From Solibacillus sp. R5-41 (lineage in GTDB: Bacteria; Bacillota; Bacilli; Bacillales_A; Planococcaceae): a stretch of 64,000 nucleotides of DNA. Below, piece by piece: positions 3,250-58,816 of the stretch. The notes under the pieces are model-generated. The model was given only the letters and a program-made list of their open reading frames with translations, was not told where the DNA came from and did no database searches. The stretch covers positions 112,001 through 176,000 of the forward strand of contig NZ_CP024123.1 in assembly GCF_002736105.1 (NCBI RefSeq), in the 5' to 3' direction. Both the position numbers and the translations under genes were made by a program. How positions within the stretch are numbered: position 1 is the stretch's first letter; each line of letters begins with the position of its first letter.

Positions 3250-4433
3250 ATGAAGAATCAAGAATTATTGCTTGTACCAGGACCGACACCTGTCGTTGAT
3301 GAAATTTATGAGGCACTTGCGAGTGAAACACATGGTCACACTGATCCACGCTTTGTAGCGATTTTTAAAAATGCCATTGAGCAAACGAAAAAGTTATTCA
3401 ATACAAATAGTGAAGTTTATGTAGTAGCGGGTTCAGGTACATTGGCAATGGAGATGGCGATTGTTAACACAGTCGGAAAAGGAGAACGCCTTCTTGTCAT
3501 TAGTCATGGATACTTTGGAGATCGCTTTACACCACTTGCCAATGCGTTTGATATTGAAGTGGAAGTTTTACAGTCAGCTTGGGGAGAACGAGTAGATCCA
3601 CAGCTTGTTGCAGAAACATTAAAAATGAAAACATTTAAAGCCGTGACAATTACACATGCAGATACTTCAACGGGGGTAATGTCAGATTTAGAAGCATTAG
3701 TGCCGATTATTAAAGAAGCGGGTGCACTCGTAATTGTTGATGGCGTTGTTGCAACGGCTGCGCTCAAAGAAGATATGAGTAAAGCGTATGGGGGAAATGA
3801 AGCTTATAAAATCGATGTTGTGTTAACAGGTTCACAAAAAGCGATTGGTATCCCACCAGGCCTTGCTATTATTGCAGTTAGTGAGCAAGCATTAGCGGCA
3901 CGTGAAGCATTAGGATCGATTCCAGCTTATTATGCGGATATTAATTGTTGGAGAGGGGTAATGGACAATCCAGCAACCTATTTTGCTACGCCACCTGTGA
4001 ATTTAATTTACGCTTATGATGCAGCCTTGAAAATTGTTTTAACGGAAGGAATGGAAACACGCGAGACACGCCATATTGCATTTGGTAAAGCTGTTCGTGC
4101 AGCGCTTCGTTCATATGGTATGACGCCTTTAGCAAATGAGTACGTTGCCGCTCCAACATTAAGCTGTATTTTATATCCAGAAGGAATTGAGGATGGCGCA
4201 TTTCGTACAAGTTTAGCCAAAAGAGGGATTATTGTAGCGGGTTCACTAGCGCATCTTACGGGTAAGGCATTCCGTATCGGACATAACATATGGGGAATAC
4301 AACAGCTTCGATGCTTGAACAAGCAATTGTCGCGATTGGAGAGGCATTAGAGGAGCAAAATCATACGGTTAATATAGAACAAGCACGACAAGCTTTTCAT
4401 GAGCAAATTGCACAAGTCGTGAAGGCATATTAA
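3250..4433 (+). pseudogene. Alanine-glyoxylate/serine-pyruvate-type aminotransferase, C-terminus frameshifted
   Basis: PLP-dependent class V aminotransferase that would transfer an amino group to glyoxylate or pyruvate. The N-terminal PGPTPV, the GSGT cofactor loop, Asp164 and the PLP lysine in GSQK (Lys197) are all present. At about 4284-4290 the frame breaks. The original frame ends at 4350 with an unrelated 19-residue tail. From an ATG at 4290 another frame continues the family-like C-terminus (MGNTTASMLEQAIVAIGEAL) and stops at 4433. Five extra bases (AACAT) after the GGACAT codons explain it. This is either a real lesion or a sequence error. The core may still fold. Confidence 0.8.
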
Positions 4434-48198: not shown

Positions 48199-49679
48199 TG
48201 GAAGCAATTATGATTCAAGGGACGTCCTCAGATGTTGGGAAAAGTGTAATTTGTACAGCACTTTGCCGTATTTTTGCGAATGATGGATTTCGCGTAGCGC
48301 CGTTTAAGTCACAAAATATGGCATTAAATTCATACATTACGAAAAGCGGCGGTGAAATTGGGCGTGCTCAAGGTGTACAAGCAGAAGCAGCTAAAATTGA
48401 TGCTACAACAGATATGAATCCGATCCTTCTAAAACCAAAAGGAGATATGGTATCGGAAGTAATTTTGCATGGCAAGCATTTAGCGAATATGGATGCTATT
48501 TCATACCGAGAAACATTTGTAGAGGATGTTATGCCCGAAATACGTAAATCACTTGGGCGTCTAAGTGAACAGTATGAAATTTTAGTACTAGAAGGTGCAG
48601 GTAGTCCAGCTGAGATTAATTTGAAAGCACGTGATATTGCCAATATGCGTATGGCACATGAAACCGATGCAAGCGTAATATTAGTTGCGGATATCGAACG
48701 TGGCGGTGTGTTTGCCTCAATAGTTGGCACGCTAGCGCTTTTAGATGATGAGGAACGCGCTCGAGTTAAAGGTGTGATTATTAATAAATTTCGAGGGATG
48801 AAGCAATTATTAGATAGTGGTGTGGAATGGCTTGAAAACTATACAGGAATTCCCGTTTTAGGTGTTATTCCATATATGGATGTACAAATTGAGGCGGAGG
48901 ATTCAATGGCGCTGTCGAGTTTACGATTAAAAAAACCACAGCAACAAGAATTTGCAATTGACGTTGTGATTATTCGCTTACCATGTATTTCAAATTTTAC
49001 AGATGTTGACCCATTATTCGAGGAACCAGGGGTTGGGCCACGCTTTGTGTCTTCTCTAAAAGATTTAAAGCAGCCAGATGTTATTATTTTGCCAGGTACT
49101 AAAAATACGGTGGAAGACTTTTTATGGCTACAAGAGAATGGTTTAGCACAAGGCATTTTACAGCATGCGCAAAAAGGTGGAAAAGTTGTAGGCATTTGTG
49201 GTGGCTATCAAATGCTTGGAGAAATCATTCGTGATGAGTCCGCGATTGAAGGTAGCGGTGGCACATACTTATCACTCGGGCTATTGCCAATTGAGACGCA
49301 TTTTGTTACAGAAAAGCAAACCGTTCAAGTACATGGTAAAACCGTTACAGGTCATGATGTGAAGGGTTATGAAATTCATTTAGGTCGCAGTGTAGCAACG
49401 AAAGAAATTACGCCATTTATTGCTTTTGATGATGGTCGCCAAGATGGTGTTTATACGGAACAAATAATCGGTACATATGTACATGGTATTTTCCAAAATC
49501 GTCATTTTACACGCGATTATTTCAATCGAATACGCAATGAAAAAAATCTGGAATTAGTTGCTGAGGATGTTTTATCAGATGATGACCGTCGTGAGCAAGC
49601 GTATGAGCTGTTAGATGAGCATGTGCGTCAGCATTTAGATATGGAGAAAATATACAATTTAATACATTTATCAGTGTAG
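48198..49679 (+). CDS. cbiP: Cobyric acid synthase
   Basis: 493 residues. MIQGTSSDVGKSVICTALC P-loop, FKSQNMALNSYIT, ADIERGGVFAS and the glutaminase triad with Cys in GICGGYQMLG and His in TYVHGIFQN. Amidates carboxyls b, d, e and g. It starts on the last base of cobO; last gene of the first operon, directly before riboswitch 2. Confidence 0.97.
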   Translation: MEAIMIQGTSSDVGKSVICTALCRIFANDGFRVAPFKSQNMALNSYITKSGGEIGRAQGVQAEAAKIDATTDMNPILLKPKGDMVSEVILHGKHLANMDAISYRETFVEDVMPEIRKSLGRLSEQYEILVLEGAGSPAEINLKARDIANMRMAHETDASVILVADIERGGVFASIVGTLALLDDEERARVKGVIINKFRGMKQLLDSGVEWLENYTGIPVLGVIPYMDVQIEAEDSMALSSLRLKKPQQQEFAIDVVIIRLPCISNFTDVDPLFEEPGVGPRFVSSLKDLKQPDVIILPGTKNTVEDFLWLQENGLAQGILQHAQKGGKVVGICGGYQMLGEIIRDESAIEGSGGTYLSLGLLPIETHFVTEKQTVQVHGKTVTGHDVKGYEIHLGRSVATKEITPFIAFDDGRQDGVYTEQIIGTYVHGIFQNRHFTRDYFNRIRNEKNLELVAEDVLSDDDRREQAYELLDEHVRQHLDMEKIYNLIHLSV

Positions 49680-49687
49680 AAATACGT

Positions 49688-49820
49688 AAAGGGAAGAGTG
49701 ATGAAAAGTCACCACGGTACCCGCCACTGTGAAGCGGAGAGTTATAGCGATACCACTGCAAAATGTTTGCGGGAAGGGCTATGAACTTTATGATGCGAAG
49801 TCAGGATACCTGCTGATAAA
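49688..49820 (+). promoter_or_regulatory. Cobalamin riboswitch 2
   Basis: GGGAAGAGTGATGAAAAGTC, then ACCCGCCACTGTGAAGC, CGGGAAGGGC and the B12 box GCGAAGTCAGGATACCTGC. This is a fuller consensus than riboswitch 1. It begins only 9 nt after cbiP and precedes the methyltransferase-btuCDF operon. Confidence 0.96.
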
Positions 49821-49848
49821 AGGAATATCGTTCTTACGGGAGTATAAG

Positions 49849-54074: not shown

Positions 54075-54290
54075 CTTGTTTCAGCAGAAGTTCCCTACTT
54101 CTATAAGTGGGGGTTCAAACCCCGGCTGAATAGAGGAACTCAGGATAAGAAAGCTGCGTCGTGCGGTAACGCCTATAGTGACCAACATCGTGTTGGCCTA
54201 ATACCCCGGCGGATGTCACAAAATTTTAAGGGGGACTTTTCGAGCGAGCTCAAAAAAATCTGGACGCAATTACGCCGAGGCGAAATTGAT
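54071..54290 (-). repeat. Dispersed palindrome-ended element, longest copy (iii)
   Basis: About 220 bp. Read on the minus strand it begins near AATTTCGCCTCGGCGTAATT (hairpin), then TCTGGACGC-type sequence, AGCTCGCTCGAAAA, GTGACATCCGCCGGGGT. A structured ~90-nt middle follows (GGCCAACACGATGTTGGTC etc.), and it ends with GGGGTTTGAACCCCC, ACTTATAGAAGTAGGG and CTGAAACAAGTTAA. No ORF. It lies between btuF and the next cobalamin genes. Confidence 0.75.
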
Positions 54291-56227: not shown

Positions 56228-56235
56228 TAAATAGG

Positions 56236-56268
56236 TACCGAAGCCACCTTTCAAAGTTGCTTCGGTAT
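56236..56268 (+). terminator. Hairpin after cbiX
   Basis: TACCGAAGC pairs with GCTTCGGTA, with a weak T-rich tail. It may reduce readthrough into cbiB-cobD. Confidence 0.55.
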
Positions 56269-56310
56269 TTATAATTTACGAATAAAAAGATTAAGTAAGG
56301 GGGTATAACC

Positions 56311-58305
56311 ATTATTTTATATTTTATTTGTATAATAGCTGTACTAACGGATTTGATTTTAGGAGAACCAAAGAAAATTACACATCCCGTAATTTATATA
56401 GGACGCTTCATTTCCTTTTTAGAGAAGGCATTGAACAAAGGGAGATATTTACGCTTCAAAGGTTTTATTACAGTCCTATTAACAGTAGGTGCTACAACTT
56501 TTATAACTTTTATAATCGTTTTTATATCTTTTAAAATTCACTTTCTTATATGGGTAGTTATGGAAGTATCGTTAATTAGCCTAGCGCTCGCTCAAAAATC
56601 ATTAAAGGAAGCGGCAATGATTGTATACGATGCACTGAACAATAACGATATGGCTCAAGCCCGTGAAAAACTAGGGTGGATTGTGGGACGAGATACTGCA
56701 CATTTAGACGAACCGGAAATTGTACGGGGAGTTGTTGAAACTGTATCAGAAAATACGAGTGATGGTGTTACCGCACCACTATTATATGCGCTATGTTTTG
56801 GAGCTACAGGTGCATGGTGTTACAAAGCAATCAATACTTTAGATTCAATGATAGGCTATAAAAATGAACGATATGGACAGTTTGGATATACTGCGGCAAA
56901 GTTAGATGATCTCGCAAATCTTATTCCAAGTCGTATTACGGGGTTTATTTTACTTATAAGTACGAAAAAGTATATTAATAAATCATTAATATTTCGGATG
57001 AAAAATTGGCTGAAAGATGCAAAGAAACATCCAAGTCCGAACAGTGGCTATCTAGAAGCAGCAACTGCCTGGCAATTAGGTATTCGCTTAGGTGGTTACA
57101 ATCAATATGGTGGAATAGAATCATTTCGAGCGTATATGGGAGAACCATATTTTACGACGCAAAAAAAGCATATTAAACTAGCAATTAAACAAATGTATGT
57201 TTGTACATGGTGGCTTTTACTAATAGGGGGATGCTATATGTTATTGCCTTCACATGGGGCTAATGCATCGGCATTGTATAAGGCAATGGGTATTACAATG
57301 CCGCAAGAAGTAATTGATTTAAGTGAAAACGTTAATGTTGAAGGGTTTCCTGAGAAAATTAAAGAGTATTGGCCCAATTTACTGAAAAAACTAGCATCCT
57401 ATCCAGATGAACAAGCAGAGCCATTTTATACGGATATAGCGGATTTTCACAAAGTTCATAAATCGCAAATTGTTGTTACGAATGGTGCAGCAGAAGGGTT
57501 AATGGCGTTAGCGCAATTTTTTAGAGGAAAAGATGTTGGATTATTAGAACCATCTTTTTCAGAGTATAAAAGGACATTGCAGCAACAAAGTTGTACGATT
57601 CATTCGGTCGTTACAGAGGATATTATTCACTATCGTTTTAATAAGCAGGCACTAAATGAATTATTATTACGTGTATCAGCTATTTACATATGCAATCCAA
57701 ATAATCCAACTGGTGTTTTATTAAAAAAAGAATGGATTGAGGGGTTAATACAAAAGTATCCACATTGTGACTTTGTAATAGATGAAGCTTTTATCGATTG
57801 GACAGACGAAGCAGAAAGTGTTGTTGCGTTAACGAAAACATATACGAATTTATTTGTCTTGCGATCTATGACGAAGATGTTTGGACTTGCGGGAGTTCGA
57901 CTAGGTTATGTGATTGGGAAGCAAGTTGAAAAGTTGCGATGTTTCCTACCACATTGGAATGTTAGTAATATTGCAATTGAACTAGGCTCCATTTGTTTAA
58001 AAGAGCAGCAATTTGTAAAGGTATCTAGGGAGAAAAGTGAGATATTAAGAGCGGAAATGGTCGTAGTACTGAAAGGATTAGGGTGTACAATTACAAATAG
58101 CGCTGCAAACTTTTTACTATTTAAATTACCGAATAGACTAAATTCGGAGTCGTTTTTTTCACATTTATTGCATCGTGGCATTGTATTACGTCATACAAAA
58201 AATTATGTTGGGTTAGATGGAAAGTGGTTCCGAATTGCCGTCAAAAACGAAGAAATATGGGCGAAGTGTAAGGAAGAGATAATAATTTATGTCGAAAATC
58301 ATTAA
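56311..58305 (+). CDS. cbiB-cobD: CbiB-CobD fusion: adenosylcobinamide-phosphate synthase / threonine-phosphate decarboxylase
   Basis: About 664 residues. The first ~320 are CbiB: TDLILGEPKKITHPV, GRDTAHLDEPEIVRGVVETVSENTSDG (in part), with several membrane helices. The rest is CobD, a class I/II PLP aminotransferase-fold decarboxylase (SHGANASALYKAMG, CNPNNPTG, PLP lysine in SMTKMFGLAGVRLGY). CobD makes aminopropanol phosphate, which CbiB attaches. No ATG/GTG begins the CbiB domain: the N-terminus needs codons back to about 56311, where an ATT stands 7 nt after GGGGG. TTG 56353 would remove part of helix 1. Confidence 0.9.
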   Translation: MILYFICIIAVLTDLILGEPKKITHPVIYIGRFISFLEKALNKGRYLRFKGFITVLLTVGATTFITFIIVFISFKIHFLIWVVMEVSLISLALAQKSLKEAAMIVYDALNNNDMAQAREKLGWIVGRDTAHLDEPEIVRGVVETVSENTSDGVTAPLLYALCFGATGAWCYKAINTLDSMIGYKNERYGQFGYTAAKLDDLANLIPSRITGFILLISTKKYINKSLIFRMKNWLKDAKKHPSPNSGYLEAATAWQLGIRLGGYNQYGGIESFRAYMGEPYFTTQKKHIKLAIKQMYVCTWWLLLIGGCYMLLPSHGANASALYKAMGITMPQEVIDLSENVNVEGFPEKIKEYWPNLLKKLASYPDEQAEPFYTDIADFHKVHKSQIVVTNGAAEGLMALAQFFRGKDVGLLEPSFSEYKRTLQQQSCTIHSVVTEDIIHYRFNKQALNELLLRVSAIYICNPNNPTGVLLKKEWIEGLIQKYPHCDFVIDEAFIDWTDEAESVVALTKTYTNLFVLRSMTKMFGLAGVRLGYVIGKQVEKLRCFLPHWNVSNIAIELGSICLKEQQFVKVSREKSEILRAEMVVVLKGLGCTITNSAANFLLFKLPNRLNSESFFSHLLHRGIVLRHTKNYVGLDGKWFRIAVKNEEIWAKCKEEIIIYVENH

Positions 58306-58816
58306 GTATTACCGTCATGCAGAAACAAAATGGAATAAAGAGGGACGATTGCAAGGATGGCTTGATTCGGAACTAACGGAACGAGGTATTCAAGAGGCAA
58401 AACAAGTTCAATGGGAACCGGAAATTGTTTTTTGTAGTGATTTAAATCGAGCATATCAAACGGCTATGCATATGTTTCCGAACAGTGTCATTCATAAAAG
58501 TGAAAATTTACGTGAAATTCGTCTCGGACATTGGCAAGGTTGTCTAATAAGCGGTCTGCAAAAAGATGGGCAATATAATTGTTATACGAATTCGCCACAT
58601 TTGTTTCAACATACTACACAAGAATCGTTTCAACAAGTGACGCTGCGAATGCTTGCATTTCACGAAAGTTTAGATCATTTATCATATAACAAAATTGCCG
58701 TCGTTTCGCATGGAGTTGCGCTTGCATGTTTCTTTACTGCAATTAAAAATCAAAGTTACGAAAATTTATGGGAATATTTATTGACTGGTACGGCATGTGA
58801 GACGGTTACGTTATAA
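58289..58816 (+). CDS. cobC: Alpha-ribazole phosphatase-like histidine phosphatase
   Basis: 175 residues. The phosphohistidine motif is YYRHAETKWN (RHA rather than the usual RHG), followed by the CobC-like GRLQGWLDSELTERG; the second His is in VVSHGVALACFF. It should remove phosphate from alpha-ribazole or adenosylcobalamin 5'-phosphate. It overlaps cobD by 17 nt. Last gene of the third cobalamin block. Confidence 0.82.
   Translation: MSKIIKYYRHAETKWNKEGRLQGWLDSELTERGIQEAKQVQWEPEIVFCSDLNRAYQTAMHMFPNSVIHKSENLREIRLGHWQGCLISGLQKDGQYNCYTNSPHLFQHTTQESFQQVTLRMLAFHESLDHLSYNKIAVVSHGVALACFFTAIKNQSYENLWEYLLTGTACETVTL

Follow-up and report, generated by a model that had tools for sequence, protein, structure and literature searches.

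The DNA analysed here (referred to as the window) is a stretch of 64,000 nucleotides from Solibacillus sp. R5-41, the genome of which (G000) is 4.28 Mb in length, is contained in one contig and is 99.99% complete. A block of vitamin B12 genes in this window includes a single open reading frame (ORF) that covers both cbiB and cobD, and where CbiB should begin it carries ATT codons in place of a canonical start. The locus thus raises the question of where the translation of CbiB begins, and whether the joining of the two genes has produced a genuine bifunctional enzyme. CobD makes aminopropanol phosphate and CbiB attaches it to cobyric acid, the two steps being consecutive. The order of the block is CbiA-/CbiP-like, riboswitch, transport-like, NIR_SIR-type, CbiX-type, the cbiB-cobD ORF and CobC-like. 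GATase_3 domains are present at about 45.1 and 49.0 kb of the window and the proteins containing them are probably CbiA-like and CbiP-like, respectively. The transport-like ORFs, recognized by eye, lie 3' of the cobalamin riboswitch and they are followed by a protein that matches NIR_SIR weakly. CobS is found as a single copy elsewhere in the genome, and the host genome yielded no further CbiB. A Bacillaceae-1 RNA (RF01690) was also observed at 54129-54196, between the btuF-like and NIR_SIR-like genes. The main features of the locus are as follows:

49655-49831, plus strand: cobalamin riboswitch RF00174, upstream in the B12 block (cmscan 89.6 bits, gathering score 31.5)
56231-56272, plus strand: strong stem-loop in the cbiX-cbiB gap, resembling a terminator or a processing site (-19.9 kcal/mol, z -6.8)
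56311-57237, plus strand: cbiB (adenosylcobinamide-phosphate synthase) part of the ORF (TIGR00380; dN/dS 0.100 against G011, the closest relative)
57238-58305, plus strand: cobD (threonine-phosphate decarboxylase) with its own ATG (TIGR01140, 264.8 bits; dN/dS 0.123)
58289-58816, plus strand: cobC-like histidine phosphatase (PF00300), overlapping the end of cobD by 17 nt

In searches against Pfam, the ORF contains CobD_Cbib (residues 8-293) and Aminotran_1_2 (residues 333-644) domains, and its top NCBIfam matches as a whole are CobD (TIGR01140, under the cut-off) and CbiB (TIGR00380, over the cut-off). The CbiB half on its own (residues 1-303) scored 251.9 bits against the equivalog TIGR00380, above the cut-off of 165.9. 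The CobD half scored 264.8 bits over positions 1-321 of 331 of the equivalog TIGR01140, for which the cut-off is 290.55. However, this cut-off seems to miss the clade as a whole, since the stand-alone CobD proteins of Solibacillus palustris (L007) and S. faecavium (L008) also fall short of it, with 268.4 and 271.9 bits, respectively. The solved chain scoring best for this half was that of L-threonine-O-3-phosphate decarboxylase (1lc5, E 3.6e-37), and we call the C-terminal half CobD-like based upon its homology and gene context. For the cobC-like phosphatase, the top NCBIfam match was alpha-ribazole phosphatase, under the cut-off.

The frame of the ORF reads TAA (56296-56298), GGG GGT ATA ACC, ATT (56311), ATT (56314), TTA and onwards, and it remains open up to the TAA at 58303-58305. 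The original prediction proposed an AUU start at 56311, and the observations on which it was founded proved correct. Between the stop at 56296 and the TTG at 56353 no ATG, GTG or TTG is present in the CbiB frame, and a GGGGG (the G run at 56299-56303) is located 7 nt before ATT 56311. The second ATT, directly behind the first, had not been mentioned, and neither had the SD (57225-57230) and ATG (57238) that belong to cobD itself. The elements relevant to the start, with SD (Shine-Dalgarno) scores based upon the sequence that we take to be the 3' end of the 16S rRNA, are listed below:

56297-56304, plus strand: Shine-Dalgarno AAGGGGGT of cbiB (SD score 20; the scored match starts a few bases further upstream)
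56311-56313, plus strand: ATT, the most likely start codon of CbiB (no canonical alternative, modal SD spacing, ATT in G011)
56314-56316, plus strand: second ATT, alternative start codon of CbiB (this column, -16, is ATG in 8/13 genus loci and ATT in G011)
56353-56355, plus strand: TTG, the earliest canonical start codon of the frame, considered not to be the start (SD score 8, without usable spacing)

Within 424 kb of the host genome, 241 of 315 ORFs have a strong SD before an ATG, and the spacing in these ORFs has its mode at 7 (57 ORFs) and falls between 7 and 9 in 140 of them. The cbiB SD is separated by 7 nt from ATT 56311 and by 10 nt from ATT 56314, and the spacing of the former is the better one. 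The cbiX gene just upstream has a similar arrangement, viz. GGGGG followed by 7 nt ending in AACC and then ATG; the same AACC precedes the ATT of cbiB. The stem-loop between these two genes was not equalled by any of 200 shuffled sequences, and G011 has a stem-loop at the matching position despite a different upstream sequence; similar arms could be discerned by eye in Lysinibacillus odysseyi (L006). The gap between cbiX and cbiB is about 300 nt in G011 (L071:6811-7113) versus 83 nt in the window. Judged by eye, the additional sequence in G011 includes a palindrome-like segment, and it may represent a small mobile repeat. A possible hairpin covering the SD and ATT of cbiB (56277-56332; z -2.0, with 8 of 200 shuffles as good) was set aside, as the segment forming its 5' arm is missing in G011.

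The start region was compared in 90 cbiB loci of the family, comprising 30 from the family search and 60 that were fetched further, mostly from the top of the list; they were drawn from the 235 of 261 family genomes with a cbiB match. A canonical start codon at positions -13 to -24 (in codons from the GxP motif) is present in 89 of the 90 loci, the exception being the window. In 86 loci, a canonical start in this range also has an SD score of at least 10 at a spacing of 4-14, and the best choice among these is ATG in 76, TTG in five and GTG in five. The four loci outside this group are the window, G011 (GTG, spacing 0), L110 (ATGs with a weak SD) and L140 (ATG at an odd spacing). The CbiB of G011 is 90% identical to that of the window, and it carries the same ATT ATT TTA; its sole canonical codon in the range is a GTG two codons upstream of the ATTs that abuts the SD, and by the usual annotation rule its start would be called from this GTG. 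In L006 (77%), the start columns read TTG-ATT-ATC-TTG-TTA. The column of ATT 56311 (-17) is occupied by ATG in three of the 13 genus loci (G001, G002, and G013) and that of ATT 56314 in eight, and hence both ATTs are candidates for the start. In this comparison, the start and junction stretches of L007 and L008 are identical to those of G001 and G003, to which they apparently belong as the same species, so the 15 close-relative rows compared represent fewer independent species.

As the codons in G011 are identical, a base error at 56311, which the original prediction had named as a possible objection, is judged unlikely, and the ATT-ATT, being common to both, is probably older than the split between the two. 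It is shared by two species only, however, and their protein divergence of about 10% is too low for a strong test of conservation. Initiation of CbiB at AUU 56311, or at the adjacent 56314, is probable and provides the best reading of these sequences. The proposed AUU start is favoured by the shared codons, the SD spacing and the loss of a conserved Asp if the TTG were used, and either of the two ATTs may be the codon used.

We now turn to the junction between the two genes, which has the following elements:

57225-57230, plus strand: Shine-Dalgarno AGGGGG of cobD, retained in the fused ORF (SD score 15, spacing 7 to ATG 57238)
57231-57237, plus strand: junction, one base shorter than in G011, bringing cobD into the cbiB frame (frame offset 0)
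57237-57263, plus strand: +1-frame stretch reading YVIAFTWG up to a stop, a remnant of the CbiB ending that relatives have, with the same last residues as CbiB of G011

CbiB residue 1 and the cobD ATG are 927 nt apart in the window versus 928 nt in G011, and hence the two frames coincide in the window. In all 14 close relatives that have cobD, this gene is one frame off cbiB, and in 13 of them cbiB is intact, with its stop 23 nt (41 nt in one) past the cobD ATG. The stop of the G011 CbiB and that in the +1 frame of the window are alike in this regard, each being 23 nt past this ATG. Across the family, 86 of 89 relatives carry the cobD motif in the +1 frame, and the window alone has it in the frame of cbiB. 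These counts are based upon a stricter motif, since a looser one hit spurious sites in the window (L038) and in L039 and L127. The cobD start precedes the cbiB stop in 85 of the 89 relatives, and not in 86, because L049 (G012) has a broken cbiB, although its cobD lies in the +1 frame. No cobD motif was found in L040, which has a cobD remnant, or in L104 and L111, for which just 200 bases past the cbiB match were covered. The longest stretch in the cbiB frame, from the start of the match to the stop, is 325 codons in the 89 relatives versus 664 in the window, and among the family matches listed the largest other open frame is 402 aa versus 668 aa. Thus, a fused cbiB-cobD frame was found neither in the 89 relatives nor, above 402 aa, among the family matches listed; the order-wide search for fusions covered no genomes beyond the 261 of the family search. 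The original prediction regarded the fusion as joining both steps that build the aminopropanol arm. As an evolved enzyme, this is not borne out, because the genes of relatives are separate and overlap in different frames, and the junction in the window is short of one base, with the ribosome-binding site of cobD itself retained. Judged by these comparisons, the cbiB-cobD fusion is incidental and not an evolved bifunctional enzyme. The missing base, which accounts for the fused ORF, may be either a recent mutation or an error of sequencing or assembly.

According to the latter explanation, the sequencing skipped one base within or next to the G run at 57226-57230 and the cells carry the usual overlapping genes; we give it slightly less than an even chance, and it bears upon the fusion alone and not upon the start of cbiB. 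The junction adjoins a homopolymer, the window is the sole one of the 90 loci in which the frame differs where the cobD motif is present, and the +1 frame still ends like the G011 CbiB, all of which speaks for a missed base. However, the genome is in a single contig with 99.99% completeness, and its assembly shows few frame disruptions: in the 424 kb compared with G011, only one other clear frameshift was seen. That survey involved 246 pairs with G011 ORFs in G000 and 245 pairs with G000 ORFs in G011 (about 245 kb coding). The other frameshift, a 5-base insertion near position 4270 of the window, is not homopolymer-like; it lies near the 3' end of an aminotransferase class-V gene (3250-4427), the last 50 or so codons of which are out of frame relative to G011. 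The survey also flagged a short ORF of 102 aa whose frame changes in G011, stops in G000 at match positions 30-59 for three G011 ORFs, and a late stop of G011 in an ORF of 139 aa. In another set of stops, which was inspected, all but one were at the start of the match, where they probably lie upstream of the true gene starts, and the remaining one was near the C-terminus.

It is unlikely, in our view, that the start codon of cbiB has simply been lost and that the gene is becoming a pseudogene from which little or no CbiB is produced. Such decay would account for the missing canonical start and for the one-base change at the other end of the gene, and it has parallels elsewhere in the genus and family: cbiB is absent in three of 16 genus genomes and broken in G012, and L. 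odysseyi (L006) keeps cbiB while its cobD is a remnant riddled with stops (L006:3929-4050). In view of these losses, an early decay in G000 is possible. Against it, cbiB has no premature stop and has retained its SD, and in the comparison of G000 with G011 its dN/dS is 0.100 (69th percentile of 242 genes, for which the median is 0.076 and the 95% point 0.202); the corresponding value for cobD is 0.123 (83rd percentile). Both genes have been constrained during most of their divergence from G011, although a very recent change would not show in these ratios. Additionally, CbiA-/CbiP-type domains, the riboswitch and the single CobS are present in the genome, and the ATT-ATT probably predates the split, as noted above.

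A real bifunctional CbiB-CobD enzyme, channelling aminopropanol phosphate to cobyric acid, is very improbable. The ORF is open across both domains, both parts are under purifying selection, and the two steps are consecutive by established pathway knowledge. However, in addition to the lack of any such fusion in the 89 relatives and among the family matches listed, it would have arisen by one base without a linker, with the last hydrophobic segment of CbiB shortened and the start of cobD retained. Further, the charge pattern suggests that the last hydrophobic segment of CbiB exits outward, and the fused CobD, a cytosolic PLP enzyme, would therefore be misplaced on the wrong side of the membrane; no topology of CbiB is given in the accessible part of PMC8092220. 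The structure model of the fused protein (7 rows, mean pLDDT 72, pTM 0.50) has most CbiB helices predicted with confidence, but it is uninformative on the linker because residues 311-384 are poor.

Two other starts for CbiB merit even less credence. Translation from ATA 56305, in the column of the G011 GTG and the L006 TTG, would agree with the canonical codons that both nearest relatives have there, and AUA starts are known in Staphylococcus aureus (according to the accessible part of PMC13009471), but this codon is just 1 nt from the SD, a spacing found in two of the 241 ORFs, which makes it highly improbable. The TTG at 56353, the earliest canonical start codon in frame and the place where automatic annotation would probably put the start, is the least credible of all, as it has the poor SD score of 8 without usable spacing, directly follows and would thus lose the Asp four codons before GxP that is present in 90/90 loci, and would remove residues 1-14, of which 13 lie inside a confidently predicted helix (2-17). 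In the 89 other loci, a canonical codon is present further upstream. The N-terminal D...GxP segment is present in the CbiB of the window, but it is retained only with a start upstream of TTG 56353.

Hence, on the strength of the sequence comparisons, we consider it reasonably likely that this locus consists of a CbiB initiated at AUU (56311 being the likeliest codon and 56314 possible) and an ORF fused by one missing base. AUU starts are weak. The strong SD at normal spacing would set the AUU in the ribosomal P site, where the fMet-tRNA would read it inefficiently, and CbiB would be made at a reduced rate; the initiation, its reduced rate and any sensitivity to IF3 are what we infer here. If the missing base is real, ribosomes starting at AUU would produce a CbiB-CobD chain, and the SD and ATG (57238) of cobD would still allow the synthesis of free CobD, which would rescue the CobD step. 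A more speculative extension, which we hold to be quite unlikely, is that this two-species lineage throttles the membrane step of B12 synthesis via AUU and that in the present strain a one-base deletion has led to two products, a scarce CbiB-CobD chain and abundant free CobD. If true, this two-product locus would represent a gene fusion caught at its first step. More generally, the locus shows how automatic annotation would probably misplace a start at TTG 56353 and drop an invariant N-terminal Asp, and it cautions that one base, real or missed, in a tightly overlapping gene pair can mimic a bifunctional enzyme. If the AUU start is confirmed, cbiB would provide a metabolic-enzyme example of such starts in Bacillota, and it should be easy to test because the output of B12 is a growth phenotype.

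Few AUU starts on bacterial protein-coding genes are known, to our knowledge. Those of the infC genes, encoding IF3, follow a strong SD at normal spacing, as is the case in Bacillus, and the infC of the host genome shows this layout (GGAGG, 9 nt, then ATT AGC AAA), like cbiB. However, infC is autoregulated by IF3, and unlike it no such feedback is evident for cbiB, a B12 enzyme. The pcnB gene of E. coli reportedly also has an AUU start. Among the literature matches listed, none described an AUU start of cbiB and none concerning cbiB or cobalamin contained Solibacillus; similarly, no CbiB-CobD fusion was found in the literature search, within the accessible parts of its sources. The role of CbiB in the attachment of aminopropanol phosphate is also treated in the accessible parts of PMC8092220 and PMC8123684. 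In S. aureus, strong, extended SDs determine the AUU start of cvfC1 and the AUA starts of ccpN and infC, and in poor medium the expression of cvfC1, ccpN and citZ reporters was about 10% of that obtained with AUG (accessible part of PMC13009471). The cvfC1 and ccpN genes thus resemble cbiB in being Bacillota genes with a non-canonical start placed by a strong SD, but ribosome profiling has located their starts, which are conserved throughout a genus or more (accessible part of PMC13009471), whereas that of cbiB is deduced from the sequences of two species. The cbiB-cobDUSC operon of Bacillus (Priestia) megaterium, as described in the accessible part of PMC8123684, has the same gene order as the window. 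Lastly, in comparison with the adjacent cbiB-cobD pairs of the family, in which the frames overlap in 85/89 relatives, the window has one base fewer and the frames are merged. The locus is thus probably a new AUU-started gene of an already known kind, together with an incidental fusion.
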